Shown: one piece after another, positions 34,099 to 45,677 of the stretch
Numbering within the stretch: the first letter of the stretch is position 1
Layout: the number at the start of each line of letters is the position of its first letter
Origin: Thermus neutrinimicus
GTDB lineage: Bacteria; Deinococcota; Deinococci; Deinococcales; Thermaceae
DNA: 64,000 nucleotides
Direction of reading: 5' to 3'
NCBI RefSeq assembly: GCF_022760955.1
Contig: NZ_JAKTNU010000001.1
Span: forward strand, 191,507-255,506
Made by a program: the position numbers and the translations under genes
Notes under the pieces: model-generated
The model's input: the letters and a program-made list of their open reading frames with translations, nothing else
What the model was told of the DNA's origin: nothing
The model's database searches: none

Positions 34099-36009
<1,911 letters not shown>

Positions 36010-36047
36010 GCCCAGGGCCACATAGGGAGCGAACCGGGGGTGGCAAG

Positions 36048-36656
36048 ATGGAACGCAAGATGGTGGAGCTCGAGGATACGGGTCTTACCTTTGAAACCCA
36101 CGTGGACCTGGGGCGCCTAAGGCGCCTTGCGGCGGAATGGCTGGAGGTCATCGGGGAGGATCCCAGCCGGGAGGGCCTCCTGAAGACCCCCGAGCGGGTG
36201 GCCAAGGCCTGGGCCTTCCTCACCCGGGGCTACCGCCAGGACCTGAAGGCCATCGTCAACGGGGCCATCTTCCCCGCCGAGGGGAGCGAGATGGTGGTGG
36301 TGAAGGGCATAGAGTTCTACTCCATGTGCGAGCACCACCTCCTTCCCTTTTTCGGCCAGGTGCACATCGGCTACATTCCGGGCGAGAAGATCCTGGGCCT
36401 TTCCAAGTTCGCCCGCATCGTGGACATGTTTGCAAGAAGGCTTCAGGTGCAGGAGCGCCTGGCCGTTCAGATCGCCGAGGCCATTCAGGAGATCCTCGAG
36501 CCCCAGGGGGTAGGGGTGGTGGTGGAGGGGGTGCACCTTTGCATGATGATGCGGGGTGTGGAAAAGCAGCACTCCCGCACCGTGACCAGCGCCATGCTGG
36601 GGGTCTTGCGGGAGAGCCAGAAGACCCGGGAAGAGTTTCTGAGCCACCTAAAGTGA
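36048..36656 (+). CDS. folE: GTP cyclohydrolase I
   Basis: First enzyme of tetrahydrofolate synthesis: GTP to dihydroneopterin triphosphate. 202 residues with zinc ligands in [11 protein letters not shown] and HLCMMMRGV, and the conserved [15 protein letters not shown] and QVQERL. The start at 36048 gives the usual length; the in-frame GTG at 36006 lies in the end of the preceding gene. It ends the forward cluster and is followed by two hairpins. Confidence 0.95.
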
Positions 36657-36726
36657 TACCCTTGCTCGCTATACCCCGCTCCTGGGGTGCCTGAGAACCT
36701 GGCCTAGAGAAGGGATGTGCCGGGGT

Positions 36727-36753
36727 CCCCACCTTGGCTGCGCCAAGGTGGGG
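36727..36753 (+). terminator. hairpin 1 after folE
   Basis: CCCCACCTTGG-CTGCG-CCAAGGTGGGG, 11-bp perfect stem. Confidence 0.65.
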
Positions 36754-36760
36754 TGGTATG

Positions 36761-36787
36761 AACCCCCCTGCCTGGGCAGGGGGGTTT
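36761..36787. terminator. hairpin 2 between folE and the surface locus
   Basis: AACCCCCCTGCC/GGCAGGGGGGTT, 11-12 bp stem with T residues on its 3' side in both directions. Likely a bidirectional terminator for converging transcripts. Confidence 0.75.
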
Positions 36788-36799
36788 GGCCCAGGGCTT

Positions 36800-37231
36800 T
36801 TACTCGGGGTTTTGCGGCGGCGCAGGCACCTCGCATCCCGGCACTGCCATTTCAGGGGAGATGCCTTCCACCGCAATGGGGATTTCCGCATCCCCCACGC
36901 CTTCCACGTGAACCCTGAGGATCCCGCTTTCCGCTCCCATGGGTACGCGGAACATCAAGGTTGCGGGATCCTCAGCCTGGGTGATCTCGGGGTTTTGTGC
37001 GGGCAGGCCCGGATCCGGGGGAAAAAGGGCGCGGTGGATGCCCGCATCCCATTCCTCTTGGGTGCCGAAGGTGTTGCCCTTGAGGGCCATCCAATCCCCG
37101 GCCCGCACGGTGCACCCAAAGACCACGTCGGGTTGGACGCTCTGGATGCGCAGCTTTCCCGTGGTCCTGATGCCCTGAGGCGCTGAGCAGGCTGCAAGGC
37201 TGAGGATCAGGAGCCAGACGATCTTTTTCAT
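36800..37231 (-). CDS. small lipoprotein of the surface locus
   Basis: 143 residues; lipobox LAAC, then APQGIRTTGKL. The mature part is beta-rich with two extra Cys (GCTVRAG and PGCEVPA), perhaps a disulfide. No family recognised. It is the last gene of the reverse-strand surface locus, separated from the gene before it by a strong hairpin (37247-37275). The ribosome binding site GGAGGAAGC is clear. Confidence 0.75.
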   Translation of the reverse strand: MKKIVWLLILSLAACSAPQGIRTTGKLRIQSVQPDVVFGCTVRAGDWMALKGNTFGTQEEWDAGIHRALFPPDPGLPAQNPEITQAEDPATLMFRVPMGAESGILRVHVEGVGDAEIPIAVEGISPEMAVPGCEVPAPPQNPE

Positions 37232-37246
37232 GCTTCCTCCAGAAGC

Positions 37247-37275
37247 TTCCCAGAGGGCCAGAGGCCCTCTGGGAA
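37247..37275 (-). terminator. intercistronic hairpin between the two lipoprotein genes
   Basis: TTCCCAGAGGGCC-AGA-GGCCCTCTGGGAA (forward-strand reading), a perfect 13-bp stem. Likely terminator or 3' stabiliser limiting read-through to the last gene. Confidence 0.75.
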
Positions 37276-37282
37276 GGAACCT

Positions 37283-38449
37283 TTACTCTGAGCAATGGCC
37301 TGGACCGATGAGGCCATTGTTGTAGCTGTCCAGGGTGGCGGCGTATCCCTTGGCCTGGTTGGCCAGGGGCTTGCTCAGGGAGTCGCTGGGCTCATAGGTG
37401 CCGAAGAAGCTTTCCGCCCAGGCCAAGGCCGCATCCACCTCGGAGGTGGTGGAGGCCCCGTTCAGGATGTTCAGCTTGGCGGCAATATACTGGTGGGCCA
37501 GGATGTAGTAGGCGTTACCGCTCGGTGAGGTCCAGAGAACCCCGTGGTAGCTCTGTCCGGAATTGAAGAAGGAGGTGTCCTCGCCTACCTTAGCCCAGGT
37601 GTCGTCGTAGGGGGCGGGGCCGTAGCGGGAATGGGTTTTCCAGTAACCCTGGGTTAGGGTGCACCCACCCGTACAGGGCACGGAAACCTTTACCGTGGCC
37701 GAGGCGGAACCCTGGGTCAGGGTGGTGGAGGTGGTGAAGGTGGCGGTGTTGTCCACCTGGTACTCCCCGCATCCCTCAAAGCTGACCCAGCGCTCAAAGA
37801 AGTAGGTCTGGGAGATCACGCCCTCAGGAGTGATGCCGCTGATGGCCTTGACCAGGGTGGCCGAGGGGTCGCTTACCTGCACGCTACCGTCCACCACCTG
37901 GGTGGGGGTGCTGAAGGCGAAGCTGGCCTGGCCCGAGGCAGTGCCGCTTTCCCCATTGCCGCTCCAGTTCACCGTGGCGGTGTTGGTGCGGCTTTGCCCG
38001 TCCGGCAAGGGTTGGCTGTAGGTGCAGCTAAGGGTTTGCCCTGCGGGCAGGGTGTAGGGGAAGCTTACGCCGCAGCTAAGGGCCACGGTTTCCCCTGTGG
38101 AGAGGGTATCGCTGGGGGCTTGCAGGAGGACGTCCACGCTGCCGGTGTTCTTGAGGGTGACCGTCCCCTCCACCTGGAAGTCCGAATCCGTGGGGGTGCC
38201 CAGCAGGTACACCGCATACTTGACCAGGTAGGACTGCCCTGGAGCCAGGGTAAGGTTTCCGCTTGCCGGGTCCGTCACCTTCTTCTCCATGGTCCAGCGG
38301 TAAGTGCGCTTGAACTTGGGCACCGCCGTCTTTTCCACCGTCACCGAGGCGCCTACCGCCACCTGGGGCTTCACGCCTTGGGGAGCCTGGGAGCAGGCCC
38401 CAAGGAACCCCACTGCTAAAAGAATCCCGTACCAATACCGCATACCCAT
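37283..38449 (-). CDS. surface lipoprotein with Ig-like repeats and a TQGYWKTH domain
   Basis: 388 residues. Lipobox LGAC; the mature sequence begins SQAPQG, like the small lipoprotein gene downstream. Residues ~30-240 are Ser/Thr-rich beta repeats of the DUF11/Ig type. From about 260 comes the extracellular motif CTLTQGYWKTHSRYGPAP with paired cysteines, which is found in secreted proteins of many phyla. Probably displayed on the cell surface as part of, or a partner to, the structure assembled by the usher-like protein encoded upstream. An alternative ATG lies 6 bases in. Confidence 0.75.
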   Translation of the reverse strand: MGMRYWYGILLAVGFLGACSQAPQGVKPQVAVGASVTVEKTAVPKFKRTYRWTMEKKVTDPASGNLTLAPGQSYLVKYAVYLLGTPTDSDFQVEGTVTLKNTGSVDVLLQAPSDTLSTGETVALSCGVSFPYTLPAGQTLSCTYSQPLPDGQSRTNTATVNWSGNGESGTASGQASFAFSTPTQVVDGSVQVSDPSATLVKAISGITPEGVISQTYFFERWVSFEGCGEYQVDNTATFTTSTTLTQGSASATVKVSVPCTGGCTLTQGYWKTHSRYGPAPYDDTWAKVGEDTSFFNSGQSYHGVLWTSPSGNAYYILAHQYIAAKLNILNGASTTSEVDAALAWAESFFGTYEPSDSLSKPLANQAKGYAATLDSYNNGLIGPGHCSE

Positions 38450-38474
38450 CCTCTCCTTTCCTAAATCCTTTACC

Positions 38475-41400
38475 TCAATGGTTTGCGCTCTCCGAGGGGA
38501 TGCCCAGCTCCAGTGGTCCTAGCGTTTCCCCGTCGGCCAGCACCAAAAGGGTGTAGCGACCGGGGCCCAAGGGCACTTCCCCGGTCCAGGAGTAGCCGTC
38601 TTCGCTCTTTAGGGCGAAGCTTTGGCCTTTTTCCGTGAGGACCACCTGGGTGGCCCGGAAGCGTAGGGTGATCTTCACCTTAGGGCCCTCGAGGGAACGG
38701 GGGTTGTAAAGAGGGCCGGGAACCACCTGAAGGAAAAGAGGGGCTTCCACTTCCTCCTGACCCCTAGCCTTCACGGACAGGGAGTGGAACCCTGGAGGTA
38801 GGGTTAGGCGTATCCGAGCTGTGTAGAAGTTTCCCTCCTGGCGGGCCAGGGGAACCGGACCCGAGGGTAGGTCCAAAAAGACCCGCTCTGCTTCTCCTTG
38901 GATCAATGCCTTGACCTCCACCTCCGCTCCGGCGATGGGGGCGGTGGGGTCGGCGGTGGCCACCAAGCTAAGGCGGCCTGCGGTATAGGTCACCTCCACC
39001 TCCCGCTTGGGGGGGAGGGCCACCACCTGGATAGCCCTGGGGGGTGCGCTGGGGTCCACCTGGGCCTGGACCCCGCCCTCCTGCCGGTAGCCCTCGGGCA
39101 GGTAGCGGGGGTCGGCGTAGACCCGGTATTCCCCGCGGAAAAGCCCGCCGATGAGGGCATGGCCGTTGGCATCTGCCCGGGTGCAGCGCTTCACCACCCC
39201 TTCCGCACAGACGCCAGCGAAGGCTAGGCCCTGCTCGTTCCCACCGTCCCGCACCTGAACGGCCAGGGTGGTGGCGGGGGCGAAGGGGAGGTTCTTTTCC
39301 AGGCTGGCGTTTAAGCTTACCTGTACCCGTTCCTCCCCCAGAAGGGCAAAGGTGGCGGGCAGGTTGGGGAAGGTAAGGATGCCTTCCCCAGCGGCCACGA
39401 AGAGGCGGTAGCGGCCTTCTGTGTCGGTGGTTTCGCAGATCTTTCCCAGGCAGATCCGGAGATTCGCCAGGGGAGCTTCGCCTGGGTCCAGGCGTCCATT
39501 GAGGTTCTCGTCGCGGAAGGCCTGGCCTACCACCTCGCCTCCCTTGCGACCGCCAAAGAGGTCCACCATCTCCTTCGGGGTGGTGAAGGCAAAGGTCTGG
39601 GTGTAGGCCAGGCTGAGGCCAAAGGCGTGGCGGGCTTCCCCGGGCTGCAGGATGAGGGTGTAGGAGGCTCCCAAGGAGAGGCCGGCTTCTAGGAAGTTGC
39701 GCTGGGCTAGGGAAAGGCCCAGGCGCTGGCTGGAGGCCTCCTCCAAGCGGTACTCGTAGAAAAGGCGGCTTTGCAGGCTCCCGGGCCAGAGTTGGTTCCA
39801 GGCGGCTCCGTAGAGGGTGAAGTCCTTTTCCGTTCCCCGCTTGATCAGGTACTGCCCCTCGAGGCTCCCTCCCTCCAGGGCCATCCGGAGCAAGAGACTG
39901 CCTTCCCACAAAGGATGTTCCTGAAGGAGGTAGCGCAGGTAGCCAGAAAGGCTTAGGTCACGGGTGCCCAGGGTGAGGCTGGCCTGATAGCTCTGGCTCT
40001 CCAGGGCTTCCCCGGAAAGCCTTCGGTTCAAGCCGTAGCCCAGGCTGAGGCTTCCGGTGTAGACCCCGGGTTCGCCGAAGGTGGTGCTGAGGCTTGGGGC
40101 GAGGCCGAAGCTGCGGCTTTCCCCCTGTTGGCGGTAACTCCCCCCCAGGCTCAAGAAGGCTCCGGCCACGGGTTGGGCGTAGAGGGTGAGCTGGCTTTGC
40201 CAAAGGCCCTGGTTGGGGCCAAGCTGCCAGCTGGTGCTTCCGCGGAGGCCAAAGGGATAAAGGCTCCGGGTACCTCCCGCCAGGCCCAGGGTGTGAAGGC
40301 CAGCCAGGGGTATGCCCCCATAGCTTTGCACCAGCTCCAGATCCTGGGTCTGCCAGGTGAGGCTTTGACTCAAGCCTAGGGACAGGCGGTAGCCCTCCCC
40401 GGTCTGGCCGCTGAGGTCGGTGCCCAGGCCCAGGCTGAGGCCTCCCTCCAAGGGAAGCCGGTAGCGCAGGTTTAGGTTGTCCTGCCGGCCCGTGGGGGCG
40501 GTCTGGGTGGAGAGGGCCCCTTGCAGGTCCAGGTTCTTGTCCAGGCTCACCGCGCTGGCCCTAAGGCCCAGGGCCTCCGGGCGGTAGTTGCCCTCGAGGC
40601 TCACCCGCGCTGGGTCCAGGCGAAAAGTGGTGGCCAGGCCGAAGCTTCCCTGCCCCCCCTGGGCCCGGGCCTCCCAGCCCTCTCCCTTGAGGCTTAAGGT
40701 GAGGGTCTGGGGCAGGCGAAGGGGCTCGGCCAGGCTCCCCGTGAGGGGGCTTGAGGCCGCGGTGGCGGTCACGTAGTCCGAGAGGGCTCCGCTCAGGCTC
40801 GGGGCCAAGAGGTAGCCCACCTGTCCCTGGAGTTGGCCTCGTTCCAAGGTGGCTCCCAGGCTCAAGGCCACACCCAGGCCCAGGATGAGCTCGGGGTCCT
40901 GGCCCTTTGGGCCGCTTGCCAGAAAGGGGTCCTTAAAGAGCACGATGACTCCGGCTTCCTTCCGGGCCTCGGGCCTTGTCCTGGGGGTGACGCGAAGCTT
41001 CAGGTAAAAGCGGTATCCTGCGGAGATCTCCCCTTGGGGGTTCACCAGCACCCGCACCACCCCGGTTTCCCCGGGAGCCAGGCTTAGGCCTGGTGGGTTT
41101 AAAAACACCTGGAACATAGCGGCTTCCGCTTGTAGAAGGAACTCCTCCTTTTGGTTGGAACGGTTGCTGACGTAGACCGGGAACTCGAAGGGTCCTCCCA
41201 AGCTGGCCTCGAGGGTGGCCGGGGCGGAGAGGGCCACCTGGATCAAGGGCAACACCCTTAACGCCACCTCGGCCCTGGCCGCCTCCTTTTCCCCTTGGTA
41301 GGCCACCACCAAGGCCTTGCCCTGGGTGCCCGCGGGCAGGGGCGGTACCCTGAGGGTGAAGCCAAGGGTTTCCTCCTTCCCCTCCAGCACCGCTTGCCTT

Positions 41401-41588
41401 TCCTGGGAAAGGGCCTGCCACCCCTCCGGGGGGAAGAGGCGGAAGCGCACCGGCCCTGTTCCCTCCACCCTCAGGCTCAGGGTGAGGTAATCCCCCGGGG
41501 CCCCGGCGAGGCCAGGGCTGGGAAGGAAGCGCACCTGGGCCCAGGCCAGGCCCAAGAGGAGGGGGAAAAGGACCAAAAGACGCCTCAT
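38475..41588 (-). CDS. usher-like outer-membrane beta-barrel protein
   Basis: 1037 residues. Signal peptide (1-17). Two Ig-like domains (about 18-115 and 116-225) come first. Then about 430 residues (235-665) of short alternating strands with Gly/Leu/Ser/Tyr and polar turns, enough for roughly two dozen barrel strands. An SdrD-B-like domain (GQAFRDENLNGRLDPGEAPL, about 690-760) with its calcium-loop pattern follows, then a carboxypeptidase-regulatory-like domain and two further Ig-like domains. The order periplasmic domain, large barrel, terminal Ig domains resembles fimbrial ushers, though I see no FimD signature. The flanking genes encode a PapD-like chaperone and subunit-like proteins, which supports the usher reading. 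Confidence 0.65.
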   Translation of the reverse strand: MRRLLVLFPLLLGLAWAQVRFLPSPGLAGAPGDYLTLSLRVEGTGPVRFRLFPPEGWQALSQERQAVLEGKEETLGFTLRVPPLPAGTQGKALVVAYQGEKEAARAEVALRVLPLIQVALSAPATLEASLGGPFEFPVYVSNRSNQKEEFLLQAEAAMFQVFLNPPGLSLAPGETGVVRVLVNPQGEISAGYRFYLKLRVTPRTRPEARKEAGVIVLFKDPFLASGPKGQDPELILGLGVALSLGATLERGQLQGQVGYLLAPSLSGALSDYVTATAASSPLTGSLAEPLRLPQTLTLSLKGEGWEARAQGGQGSFGLATTFRLDPARVSLEGNYRPEALGLRASAVSLDKNLDLQGALSTQTAPTGRQDNLNLRYRLPLEGGLSLGLGTDLSGQTGEGYRLSLGLSQSLTWQTQDLELVQSYGGIPLAGLHTLGLAGGTRSLYPFGLRGSTSWQLGPNQGLWQSQLTLYAQPVAGAFLSLGGSYRQQGESRSFGLAPSLSTTFGEPGVYTGSLSLGYGLNRRLSGEALESQSYQASLTLGTRDLSLSGYLRYLLQEHPLWEGSLLLRMALEGGSLEGQYLIKRGTEKDFTLYGAAWNQLWPGSLQSRLFYEYRLEEASSQRLGLSLAQRNFLEAGLSLGASYTLILQPGEARHAFGLSLAYTQTFAFTTPKEMVDLFGGRKGGEVVGQAFRDENLNGRLDPGEAPLANLRICLGKICETTDTEGRYRLFVAAGEGILTFPNLPATFALLGEERVQVSLNASLEKNLPFAPATTLAVQVRDGGNEQGLAFAGVCAEGVVKRCTRADANGHALIGGLFRGEYRVYADPRYLPEGYRQEGGVQAQVDPSAPPRAIQVVALPPKREVEVTYTAGRLSLVATADPTAPIAGAEVEVKALIQGEAERVFLDLPSGPVPLARQEGNFYTARIRLTLPPGFHSLSVKARGQEEVEAPLFLQVVPGPLYNPRSLEGPKVKITLRFRATQVVLTEKGQSFALKSEDGYSWTGEVPLGPGRYTLLVLADGETLGPLELGIPSESANH

Positions 41589-41589
41589 C

Positions 41590-42078
41590 TCAAGGTTGCC
41601 TCAAAGCGGTGACCAGGGCCTGGACCACGTAACTACCCGCCCGCTCGTTCCCGAGAAGCTCGAGGGCAAACTCCAGGCGGATCTCCATCCAGTCCCCTGT
41701 GGGGCCCGTCTGGGTGTAGACGATCTGAGGGGTGCCGTCGGCCCTAAGCCAAAGCCCCCCGTTCACCCGGTAGAGGACCTGTCGGGCAGGCAGAAGCAAT
41801 ACCCCGTTTTGGTCCTTGAGGTCTGGGATCTGCAGGAGGAGGCTCCAAACCCCGGGGGCGTTGGAGAAAACCTGTACCGGGAGGATGCCACCTTCCAGGT
41901 TACTGGCGGGGTAGGTGGCGGGGAAGGCCTTGGGGGGATAGTCCTTAAGGTCAAAGGCGATCTGGGTGGTGGGGGTGCGGAGGGCGATGGTCTCGGGGAT
42001 CAGGGTCTGCACGATCCAGGTGGCCTGGGCCAGGGCTGGGGTAGCCAGCAAGAGGAGAAGGGTCAGCCAACTTCTCAT
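41590..42078 (-). CDS. secreted subunit-like protein (minor pilin candidate)
   Basis: 162 residues with signal peptide (1-17). Beta-rich throughout. Near the mature N-terminus, LIPETIALRTPTTQIAFDL parallels LPKATALHLDVTTLTFDLT of the 277-residue protein, so the two are probably related subunits. The end (AGSYVVQALVTAL) is like the last strand of spore-coat-U/fimbrial subunits. Its start overlaps the chaperone stop by 4 bases, and one base separates it from the usher-like gene, so the three are tightly coupled. Confidence 0.65.
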   Translation of the reverse strand: MRSWLTLLLLLATPALAQATWIVQTLIPETIALRTPTTQIAFDLKDYPPKAFPATYPASNLEGGILPVQVFSNAPGVWSLLLQIPDLKDQNGVLLLPARQVLYRVNGGLWLRADGTPQIVYTQTGPTGDWMEIRLEFALELLGNERAGSYVVQALVTALRQP

Positions 42079-42917
42079 GGGGTATTTCCTTTCTCCCCCT
42101 CGTCCGCAGGAGGCGCGGGAGGGGCGGCCAAGGGGGTGCGCAGGGTAAAGGGGAGGTCTGCGGCCACGTCCTTGGTGGGGTCGCCGTAGTTGAGGATGGC
42201 CAAGGCGGTGTAGTTGCCCACGGGCAAGGGACCCACTAGGGCGACGGGCAGGATGCGTACCTGGCCTGGAAGGACCACCACTTCCTCCACTTCCACCTCC
42301 GCCACCTTGCGACCTGCTCCGTCCCGCACTTCAAAGCGGCCCGAGAGCTTTTGGGCGGTGTTTCCCGTGTTTTGGTACTGGACGGCAAAGCGATAGGGCT
42401 CCCGAGGTTCCCGTGGGGGACTGGGCACAATCCCGGTGATGCGCCCTGAGGTTGTTAGAGGGGGCACGTTCACGTAGAAGACGTGGGCCATGCGCACCCG
42501 GAAGTTGGCTAAGGGGACCCCGGGAGGTGGGTTAGGATCCTCGGATTCCAGGAAGAGGATGCCCCAGTGGGTGCCCGAGGTGGCCTCCTTGGGAACGGTG
42601 AGGGTGTAGGTGAGGGGCCGGCTCTGCTTCGGCTCAAGCAGGAACTCCGCCGGAGCAAAGGTGACCCATGGGCTTGCGCTTACCTTCAAGGCGCCTGTGG
42701 GGAGGAACTGGATCTTTCCCATGGGGTCGTAGGTCCAGTCCCCCAGGCTGGCCCTTACCCGCACCGGACGGGTGCCCACGTTGTAGACCGTGAGGGTTTG
42801 GGTGAGCACCTCCCCCGGCTTGGCCTCCTTGAGGAGGACGGGGGGCTCTACACCCAGGGTGCTTTGGGCCAGGGCGCCGAGGGCCAGGGTGAGGAGGAGG
42901 GGAAAGATTCGCTTCAT
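42075..42917 (-). CDS. periplasmic PapD-like chaperone
   Basis: 280 residues with signal peptide (1-17). The first domain (about 20-160) has the layout of a PapD/major-sperm-protein-like Ig fold: GVEPPVLLKEAKPGE, LTVYNVGTRPVRVRA, FAPAEFLLEPKQSRPLTYTL, then GTHWGILFLES. A second Ig-like domain (about 175-265) follows with NTGNTAQKLSGRFEV. In chaperone-usher systems such proteins cap subunits in the periplasm. The conserved Arg/Lys pair of classical FimC is not evident, so it is a distant relative. Confidence 0.7.
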   Translation of the reverse strand: MKRIFPLLLTLALGALAQSTLGVEPPVLLKEAKPGEVLTQTLTVYNVGTRPVRVRASLGDWTYDPMGKIQFLPTGALKVSASPWVTFAPAEFLLEPKQSRPLTYTLTVPKEATSGTHWGILFLESEDPNPPPGVPLANFRVRMAHVFYVNVPPLTTSGRITGIVPSPPREPREPYRFAVQYQNTGNTAQKLSGRFEVRDGAGRKVAEVEVEEVVVLPGQVRILPVALVGPLPVGNYTALAILNYGDPTKDVAADLPFTLRTPLAAPPAPPADEGEKGNTP

Positions 42918-42934
42918 GGTTCACCGAAAGGGCG

Positions 42935-42960
42935 AAGGCCTGGCCCCAGGGCCAGGCCTT
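42935..42960 (-). terminator. hairpin between the major subunit and the chaperone gene
   Basis: AAGGCCTGGCC/GGCCAGGCCTT, 11-bp stem with a 4-nt loop, followed on the transcribed strand by CGCCCTTT. Probably a partial terminator allowing more subunit mRNA than chaperone/usher mRNA. Confidence 0.65.
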
Positions 42961-42969
42961 CAAGGTCGC

Positions 42970-43803
42970 TTACCAAGCAGTCGTGGCCAGGGTGTAGGTG
43001 AGGTTCGCGGTGCTCTTGCCCCAGAGATCGCTGTTGACCTTGACGGCCACCACCACCAGGTCATCCAGCCAGCTCTTGTAGCCGCACCGCTCGGGGTTGT
43101 TGCCGGAACGGGTCCCCGTGGGGCCGGCCTGCAGGTTCCGGGGCACCAGTTCCAGGCTGGCGCCATTGGGAAGCTCGTAGAGGCCCGTGGCCGCGCCGAA
43201 GGTGTCGCAGGGGTTGTCCTGGATGTAGAGGTGCTGGATCCCTTGGGCGCTTTCGGGGTCGTTGCGGTTCACGGTGAGGTGCCACTGCTTCCCGTTAGAG
43301 AACTTCTGCAGGATGAAGGTGCGGTAGCAGACGAAGTAGTTCTTGCTCCCCGGCACCAGCTCCCCGTTCTTATCCAGCTTGATGGGGGGATAGGCGGTCA
43401 CCGCCCCGCCCCCGTTGATGCTGATGTTGGGCCAGGTGGCCGTGCTGTAGCTGGTGCCCAGGGGCAGGGTCTGCACCTGGTTGTAGAAGTTGTCCCCCAG
43501 CTGGGTCTTCACGTCCTGGTCCGTAAGCCCGTAGACGCAGACCATCTGCCCGCCGAAATCCGGGGTGGAGTTGGGCCAGTTGGCCCCGTCCAGCCCCGTG
43601 AGGTCAAAGGTCAGGGTGGTCACGTCCAGGTGCAGGGCCGTGGCCTTGGGGAGGATGAGCTCGATGGTCTGGTTCACGGCGGCCGAGTCGGCGCCCTTGG
43701 CGTAGGCGTCGGGGCCGTTCCCCTTGGTGGGGGCCACCGTGGGGGCCTGGGCCAGGGCCAGGGGTGCCAAAGCCAATACTGCTACCAAAATGCCTTTGCG
43801 CAT
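42970..43803 (-). CDS. secreted subunit-like protein (major subunit candidate)
   Basis: 277 residues with signal peptide (1-19, ending ALAQAP). Mature sequence is rich in Asn/Thr/Gly/Tyr and beta-strand patterns. It has five or six Cys that could form disulfides (MVCVYG, FVCYRT, NPCDTF, ERCGYK). It ends NLTYTLATTAW, a plausible donor/terminal strand. It is first in the operon, directly after the promoter, and is followed by a hairpin, as expected for the most abundant subunit. Ribosome binding site GGAGGGAT is clear. No homologue is recognised from sequence alone. Confidence 0.65.
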   Translation of the reverse strand: MRKGILVAVLALAPLALAQAPTVAPTKGNGPDAYAKGADSAAVNQTIELILPKATALHLDVTTLTFDLTGLDGANWPNSTPDFGGQMVCVYGLTDQDVKTQLGDNFYNQVQTLPLGTSYSTATWPNISINGGGAVTAYPPIKLDKNGELVPGSKNYFVCYRTFILQKFSNGKQWHLTVNRNDPESAQGIQHLYIQDNPCDTFGAATGLYELPNGASLELVPRNLQAGPTGTRSGNNPERCGYKSWLDDLVVVAVKVNSDLWGKSTANLTYTLATTAW

Positions 43804-43853
43804 ATATCCCTCCGAATCTGCCCCTCGAGGTGGTGGCCTCTCAGGACGCCCTC

Positions 43854-43889
43854 ACCCTAAGGGGAAGGGCGTTACGGGGGCGTTACGGG
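43854..43889 (-). promoter_or_regulatory. tandem 11-bp repeat operator and -10 of the surface operon
   Basis: On the reverse strand CCCGTAACGCC occurs twice in perfect tandem (43889-43879 and 43878-43868). Then come exactly 8 bases and the -10 TAGGGT (43859-43854). SARP-type activators of Streptomyces bind 11-bp-spaced direct repeats ending 8 bp before the -10, replacing the -35. No -35 is seen here either. The divergent regulator gene is the natural binder. Confidence 0.7.
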
Positions 43890-43927
43890 AAGGAGGCCCG
43901 TGGCTCAAAGAGCCTCTGGGTTCGTGG

Positions 43928-43933
43928 TAGAAT
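43928..43933 (+). promoter_or_regulatory. -10 of the regulator gene
   Basis: TAGAAT, with an in-frame ATG inside it (43932) that cannot be the start of an mRNA made from this promoter. This favours the TTG at 43956. Confidence 0.6.
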
Positions 43934-43955
43934 GAAGGGCAAGGAAGGTAACGCT

Positions 43956-45677
43956 TTGAAACGCCCCCTTAACGATCCGGTTTATGCCCTGCCCCTTTTT
44001 GGCCGGGCTCGGGTGGTTTCCCAGGGCACGGAGCTGCGGGTTTCCCGCAAGGGATTGGCCCTGCTTTACTACCTGGCCCTGGAGGGGCCCACCTCGAGGG
44101 GCCGCCTGGCCGACCTCCTTTACGGTCACGGCTCGGCCCTGCAAAACCTTCGGGTGGAGCTCCACCGCTTAAGCCAAGCCTTGGGACGGGAGGTTTTCCC
44201 CAAGGGGCAGGACCCTTTGGGTTTGCCTTCCTGGCTCAAGCTGGAGACCTTGGGGCACGGGGAGGTTCTGGAGGGCCTGGAGGATGTGGGGGGCTTGTGG
44301 GAGTGGGTGCAGGAGGTGCGCACCCGCTACGAGGCCGTTCCTGGCCTTTCCTGCCGTCAGGAACTCTTGCGGGAGCTTTCCCCTTTGCGCCCTCCCTTTC
44401 TCTTGGTGTTAAGGGGGCGCCTTGGGGCAGGCCAGCGCCAGCTGGCCCAGGAGCTGGCCCGGGTTCTGGGCTTGGCCTTCCACCAAAGCCTGCGCCCGGA
44501 GGGCTTGGTCTACCTGGAGTCCCCCTATCCCCAGGTGCCCTTGCGGGAACTCCTGCGCTCCAAGGCCTTTTTGGTCCTGAGCCTGGACCCCGGGGAGGAG
44601 CCCCGCTTCTTCCTGGAGCTTCGCGCCCACTATCCTCCGGAGCGCATGCGGGTGCTGGAGCTATCCCCGTTACCCTGGCTCGAGGCCCGGCAGGGGCTCT
44701 TGGCTGGATATGGCTTCCAGCAAGCTGCCAGGGCCTACTTCCTGGCGGGAGGTCAGCCCGAATGGATCCCCGAGTGGCTGGTTTCGGCCAGCTTTCCTCA
44801 GCGCCTTCTGGCTCAGCTTCGCCTGCAAGCCCGTTGGCTTAGTGAACCCGCCCGCGTGGCCCTGGAGCGGCTATCCGTGGCCTTTGGGCCCATTCCCGAG
44901 CAGGTCCTGGACGCCCTGGGGGCCCTGCCTTACCTGGAGGAGCTGGAGCGCAAGGGATGGCTGGTTTACGGGGAAGGCTACGGCTTTGCTAAGGAGGCGG
45001 AGCGCCGCTTTTTTTATTCCGCTCTCCCTGAAGGCCGAAGGCGCGAGCTCCATGAGCGGGCGGCCACCGCCTTGGCTCTTGCGGGTCATAACCAGGAGGA
45101 GGCCCTGCACCGGAAGGCCTTGGGGGAGGGGTACGAAGGCCTCCTTGGCCCACGCCTACGCCAGGCCCTGTTTGGGGAAGGGAGGGTTTGGGAAAGAAGG
45201 GGGTTGGGACGGGAACTGGCCTTGCTCGTACAGGCCGGCCAAGGGGTCTTCCCTTTGGGACAAGGGTTTGGCCTGGCCCTTTTGGAGCCCACGGATAGGG
45301 TCCACCTGGACTTTGCCTCCTTGGAGGAGGAGGCGGTGTTGGAGCTGGTGGGAGAAGCCTATGCTCCCCAGGACTCCTGGGGCCTTCTTTTGGCCTTGCG
45401 GGGGGCCTGGGGGGAAAGGTATATCCGGCTGGAAGGGGCTTTCGCCCACCGCATGCTCCTTCCCCCTGGGCCTTTCCGCCTGCGTTTTTCCGGTTTGGGG
45501 GTGGCGGAGTTTTCCCTGCGGGCTCATAGGATCGGGCGTGGGGGTGGGAGACTGGCGTTGGACAAAGGTCTAGTGGAGGTCTGGAACCTAGCGGCGAAGA
45601 AGGGTGAGGAGGTTCCAAAGCAGGGTGAGGAGAAGGGAAAGGACCAGGGCGGAAGCAATGGGGATGTATACCTTTAG
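43956..45677 (+). CDS. winged-helix transcriptional regulator with degenerate P-loop domain
   Basis: 573 residues from the TTG at 43956, which has AAGGAAGG 7 nt before it. Residues ~10-95 are an OmpR/SARP-like winged helix (LFGRARVVSQGTEL, SRKGLALLYYLALEG, ALQNLRVELHRLSQALG). An AAA/STAND-like region follows, whose P-loop reads LRGRLGAGQRQLAQ, lacking the GK[ST] needed for ATP. A helical region and a beta-rich C-terminal domain complete it. The last ~30 residues are charged low-complexity and lie opposite the DUF2905 gene. It faces the surface operon and is its probable activator. SARP-like regulators outside actinobacteria are little studied. Confidence 0.75.
   Translation: MKRPLNDPVYALPLFGRARVVSQGTELRVSRKGLALLYYLALEGPTSRGRLADLLYGHGSALQNLRVELHRLSQALGREVFPKGQDPLGLPSWLKLETLGHGEVLEGLEDVGGLWEWVQEVRTRYEAVPGLSCRQELLRELSPLRPPFLLVLRGRLGAGQRQLAQELARVLGLAFHQSLRPEGLVYLESPYPQVPLRELLRSKAFLVLSLDPGEEPRFFLELRAHYPPERMRVLELSPLPWLEARQGLLAGYGFQQAARAYFLAGGQPEWIPEWLVSASFPQRLLAQLRLQARWLSEPARVALERLSVAFGPIPEQVLDALGALPYLEELERKGWLVYGEGYGFAKEAERRFFYSALPEGRRRELHERAATALALAGHNQEEALHRKALGEGYEGLLGPRLRQALFGEGRVWERRGLGRELALLVQAGQGVFPLGQGFGLALLEPTDRVHLDFASLEEEAVLELVGEAYAPQDSWGLLLALRGAWGERYIRLEGAFAHRMLLPPGPFRLRFSGLGVAEFSLRAHRIGRGGGRLALDKGLVEVWNLAAKKGEEVPKQGEEKGKDQGGSNGDVYL

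Follow-up and report, generated by a model that had tools for sequence, protein, structure and literature searches.

A candidate chaperone-usher-like surface assembly locus with a WxLIP-type chaperone in Thermus and other Deinococcota

Three types of described surface systems resemble the locus that we analyze here. In the WxL/WxLIP (Csc) clusters of Bacilli and in actinobacterial DUF916 gene pairs, the gene for a DUF916 protein with two Ig domains has one to three neighbors that encode small secreted beta proteins. The CscA proteins of WxL clusters have a membrane anchor (PMC1534035), and for WxLIP the insertion of a strand into the partner WxL protein has been predicted (PMC10599100). The archaic and alternative chaperone-usher systems (Csu, CFA/I, ECP) offer the gene set subunit-chaperone-subunit-barrel, a chaperone with a two-Ig fold and a large barrel in the outer membrane that carries Ig-like domains at its C-terminus. 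Finally, the inverse autotransporters of the intimin/invasin type combine a periplasmic part, a barrel, which in intimin has 12 strands, and an Ig-like C-terminus in one chain. In our literature search we found no paper that treats DUF916 together with an usher; WxL and donor strand appeared together only in a broad review, where each is mentioned once.

The locus lies in a 64,000-nucleotide stretch of the Thermus neutrinimicus genome (the window; contig NZ_JAKTNU010000001.1, positions 191,507 to 255,506). Six minus-strand genes, S1, C, S2, U, LP1 and LP2, form a single unit, from which the regulator gene REG diverges (Table 1). The first-pass annotation had proposed that these genes encode one chaperone-usher-like machine with two secreted subunits, two lipoproteins and a dedicated regulator. 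Its coordinates and lengths for the six genes are correct, and so are the tight junctions around the central three: C and S2 overlap by 4 bases (ATGA), and 1 base separates S2 from U. The other gaps measure 52 (S1-C), 25 (U-LP1) and 51 bases (LP1-LP2). By eye, Sec-type signal peptides are present on S1, C, S2 and U, and both lipoproteins possess a lipobox. Only the start codon of REG had to be corrected. The reading frame as first listed overlaps S1, and since the homologues, which give matches to Trans_reg_C/BTAD and AAA/P-loop-like domains, align only from residue ~69-76 onward, the ATG at 43932 is the likelier start, which puts the divergent genes ~128 bp apart. No promoter emerged from a simple scan. 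The LP1-LP2 gap holds a hairpin of its own (Table 1); in the relative L081 this gap is short and contains none.

Table 1. Features of the locus (positions in the window) and of its paralogue on contig 6 of the same genome (positions on that contig).
Feature	Position	Strand	Description
S1	43803-42970	-	277 aa, secreted, beta-rich; candidate major structural subunit
Hairpin S1/C	42934..42961	-	12-bp stem, -28 kcal/mol, without T-run
C	42917-42075	-	280 aa, secreted, two Ig domains; DUF916/WxLIP-family chaperone candidate
S2	42078-41590	-	162 aa, secreted subunit candidate, S1 homologue, between C and U
U	41588-38475	-	1037 aa, predicted usher-like outer-membrane protein
LP1	38449-37283	-	388 aa lipoprotein; lipobox LGAC
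Hairpin LP1/LP2	37247-37275		perfect 13-bp stem, -32 kcal/mol
LP2	37231-36800	-	143 aa lipoprotein; lipobox LAAC
REG	43932..45677	+	divergent regulator; start moved from GTG 43764
Paralogous locus	35404-43710		type 2, contig 6
Paralogous U	35404-38262		952 aa
Paralogous S2	38266-38739
Paralogous C	38736-39518
Paralogous S1-type genes	39577-41899		three genes
Paralogous REG	42016-43710		own regulator

The core S1-C-S2-U is found across Deinococcota, where nearly all of its genes are annotated as hypothetical. Two alignments of U offered no stretch with enough conservation to scan the genome collection, so S1 served as the query for related loci. The gene order proved to be kept not only in Thermus but also in other families of its order, and in MAGs that bear the names Thermaceae and Deinococcales. 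A divergent REG homologue adjoins most orthologous loci; the proposed dedicated regulator is supported. A profile search of 111 genomes gave 72 C matches in 53 of them; in 58 of the 72 cases U lies within 3.5 kb (50 on the same strand, 8 on the opposite one), and 48 genomes have both. Many of the C matches with no U nearby sit on small contigs. The genes are hence not separated in most genomes, and the conserved order together with the co-occurrence of C and U bears out the proposed single machine. Chance is not the explanation for the gene set, given that its order is met again in distant genomes and in a paralogous second locus of the same genome, which we call type 2. Within Thermus the distribution is patchy, with type 1 in 13 and type 2 in 9 of 27 genomes. 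Type-2 loci carry up to three S1-type genes. LP2 is kept with most type-1 loci across families, also outside Thermus, and LP1 accompanies the locus only in Thermus and its nearest genus.

Four Deinococcus plasmids carry S1-C-S2-U as well. Three of these sets are annotated as wholly hypothetical; in the fourth only U is named, after a carboxypeptidase-like regulatory domain. Loci L117-L120 and L121 lie on large Deinococcus plasmids; on plasmid 2 of D. deserti the C homologue is annotated as FimB/Mfa2, and an 839-aa carboxypeptidase-regulatory-like protein occupies the place of U. A third, more divergent arrangement, in which the C and U homologues stand ~1 kb apart on opposite strands, occurs in other families (L074, G058, G059:C2, G061:C137, G062, G080, G096-G098). 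U homologues split into at least two frames (L078, 6498-9613, in G030; G023 contig 5, 66989-68148; G042 contig 32, 7214-8119) suggest that the locus is decaying in some Thermus, unless they are errors of assembly. Outside the phylum, actinobacterial plasmids (L122, L123, L125, L130-L132) have a gene for a small, apparently secreted protein directly before the DUF916 gene, a minimal likeness to the S-C pair that comes without U; in Curtobacterium this small neighbour is annotated as WxL.

The protein C had been proposed to be a PapD-like two-domain chaperone. Its AF2 model (pLDDT 80), which like that of U derives from a shallow alignment of 12 sequences, indeed consists of two Ig domains; the F1 (115-126) and G1 (137-149) strands are long, and a low-confidence loop connects them. 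The top Foldseek matches are the E. faecium WxLIP structures 9i25/9i1y (E 2.5e-11), followed by RbmA, CfaA, CsuC, FimC, CupB2, SafB and Caf1M. For CfaA, CsuC, FimC, Caf1M and SafB the E-values range from 1e-8 to 2e-7 at TM-scores of 0.3-0.47, which are modest perhaps because the angle between the domains differs; ciliary Ig proteins are matched too. By sequence, membership of the PapD family had to be rejected: an HMM search found no PF00345 in C, profile-profile comparison with five E. coli PapD-type chaperones gave no match, and EcpB/EcpE matched weakly (64%). The WxLIP peptidoglycan-binding domain PF06030, in contrast, was seen in 9 of 12 C orthologues with E-values down to 9e-4, below the Pfam cut-off. 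A tblastn search of plasmids with C returned Deinococcus and then actinobacterial DUF916 proteins, and the latter align with C over both domains (hhalign 99.2%, E 1.8e-19, 225 columns), compared with 52% for the DUF916 proteins of Bacilli. From the profile-profile and Foldseek matches we conclude that C is a WxLIP-family protein whose predicted fold is common to donor-strand chaperones. The two-Ig chaperone fold of the original proposal thus stands, and the PapD family gives way to DUF916/WxLIP.

S1 is a homologue of S2 (hhalign 94%, E 1.1e-7, 92 columns), and the S1 proteins of type-1 loci share four conserved Cys. Neither has informative relatives in Pfam or the PDB. Searches for fimbrial and SCPU families were negative; four S1 proteins matched AHD weakly, and profile-profile comparison gave no match to E. 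coli pilins including FimA. PF05229 (SCPU) had no match in the organism's own genome, but the control genomes likewise had none, which makes this absence uninformative. In both proteins a W-x-L stretch, together with a strand near the C-terminus of the kind (L/V)(T/L)(W/Y/F)TL, is reminiscent of WxL domains. Against WxL profiles from Firmicutes and actinobacteria, in several groupings, WxL was mostly the best comparison, but never a significant one: the best S1-WxL alignment, at the C-terminal motif, reached p ~0.01 and a probability of ~5%. Because the likeness is not significant, we do not claim a WxL identity for S1 and S2.

In all 13 type-1 loci examined and in two type-2 loci, a GC-rich hairpin separates C from the last S1-type gene. 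When eight loci were compared with shuffled sequences, seven gave z-scores of -3.0 to -6.0 and one gave -1.4. The stem sequences vary between lineages, and where type-2 loci have several S1-type genes in a row, no comparable hairpin parts them. The hairpin is likely an mRNA element for processing or partial termination that raises S1 over the assembly genes, as expected if S1 is an abundant structural subunit.

These data also bear on a reading without polymerization, in which U would display a static complex of C and its subunits, as the Gram-positive WxL/WxLIP clusters do on their walls. It would account for the fact that C is closest to WxLIP in both sequence and structure, for the gene content of the monoderm clusters, where a single DUF916 gene is likewise joined by one, two or three WxL genes, and for the best, if insignificant, match of S1, which is to WxL domains. 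The locus differs from those clusters in its diderm host and in subunits that are not demonstrably WxL domains. Against a static complex, C ends in a Pro/Glu-rich tail and has no C-terminal membrane helix that could anchor it, U adds a large outer-membrane barrel unknown in WxL clusters, and the hairpin suggests that S1 is made in excess. We therefore consider such a static complex unlikely.

The domain reading of U in the first-pass annotation, two N-terminal Ig domains, a barrel of about 430 residues and C-terminal SdrD/Ig domains, agrees with the AF2 model (12-sequence alignment, pLDDT 82, pTM 0.43). The model places the Ig domains at 19-120 and 121-219 and the barrel, for which it predicts ~28 consecutive strands, in the 437 residues 233-669; SdrD-B/CarboxypepD_reg/Ig domains follow at 683-1030, with SdrD-B solidly assigned by sequence (PDB 10ps, E 6.5e-11). 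An usher, in comparison, has 24 strands, a plug, an NTD and two CTDs, whereas U shows no plug-sized insertion in its modeled barrel, carries the Ig pair instead of the NTD and extends into a long SdrD-type C-terminus. Type-2 U has a shorter barrel region, so the strand number is not fixed; if it is even, both ends of U would lie in the periplasm, as in ushers. The absence of a FimD signature, noted at first by eye, was borne out: PF00577 gave no match to U at E<=10, and four E. coli ushers gave none in profile-profile comparison. Nor did PF00577 match anything in the organism's own genome or in 111 genomes of the phylum, a sample that may contain few or no Deinococcus proper; the E. coli control was positive. 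Archaic chaperone-usher systems have been reported from the phylum (PMC4654587). In structure, FimD and PapC nevertheless rank above all other outer-membrane barrels listed for the U model (Foldseek E 3e-14), ahead of TonB receptors and LptD near 1e-7 and Cir at ~3e-7, with the proviso that TM-scores to ushers are only 0.2-0.36 and that the Ig domains contribute to the E-value. Compared by profile, the N-terminal Ig pair matches actinobacterial DUF916 proteins at 96% (E 1.3e-9) and C at 86%. Since a match with Bacilli DUF916 was not seen, this likeness of the Ig pair to DUF916 is suggestive only.

The order of periplasmic N-terminal domains, barrel and Ig repeats, together with SdrD-B domains typical of adhesins, could also mean that U is itself the adhesin, anchored by its barrel like intimin or invasin and displaying its C-terminal SdrD/Ig domains, with S1, S2 and C as partners. 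The ~28 predicted strands form a barrel much larger than the 12 strands of intimin, which led us to reject U as a 12-strand inverse autotransporter. Moreover, with an even strand number the C-terminus would have to be threaded through the pore to leave the periplasm, ushers rank above other barrels, and the constant link with a dedicated chaperone and subunits would be left unexplained. Taken together, this makes the adhesin reading quite improbable. Still more doubtful is an ordinary export or porin locus with U as a large channel, C as an Ig protein that binds solutes or the wall, and S1 and S2 secreted with no assembly role: this reading gains from how common two-Ig-domain proteins are and from the matches of C to RbmA and to ciliary Ig proteins, but the homologous S1 and S2 are inherited together with C and U in the paralogous locus and in lineages far apart, and C matches donor-strand chaperones over its whole length.

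In summary, the locus probably encodes a chaperone-usher-like assembly pathway of the Deinococcota envelope, outside the known clades and with a WxLIP-type chaperone. In the pathway that we infer from the computed gene content, conservation, homologies, predicted folds and hairpin, Sec would export S1, S2 and C to the periplasm, where C, with its WxLIP/PapD-like fold, would hold S1 and S2 and most likely supply their incomplete sandwich with strand G1 from its first Ig domain. U in the outer membrane would take over the C-subunit complexes through its own DUF916-like Ig pair, and the subunits would leave through the wide barrel. Polymerized S1 may form the bulk of the surface structure; S2, encoded between C and U, may start, end or anchor it. 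LP2 would be accessory, and REG would switch the operon. The original idea of an independent or very divergent chaperone-usher system survives in the usher-like barrel; given that C is a DUF916/WxLIP homologue, it is better recast as an usher-like barrel with a WxLIP-type rather than a PapD-type chaperone. Tentatively, one may go further and see here an additional class of the chaperone-usher type, seen to date in Deinococcota alone; its chaperone, and perhaps its subunits too, could share ancestry with the Gram-positive WxL/WxLIP clusters.

The locus may thereby join two systems thought to be unrelated, the Gram-positive WxL clusters and outer-membrane assembly. If true, Thermus and Deinococcus would possess an undescribed surface assembly machine, WxLIP would be explained as a chaperone relative, and the origin of the chaperone-usher pathway would become testable across the monoderm/diderm divide. 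Since Thermus lends itself to genetics and has stable proteins, the structures are within reach. Should the shared-ancestry reading hold, donor-strand chaperoning would span monoderm walls and diderm outer membranes, and ushers would have been acquired or evolved more than once.
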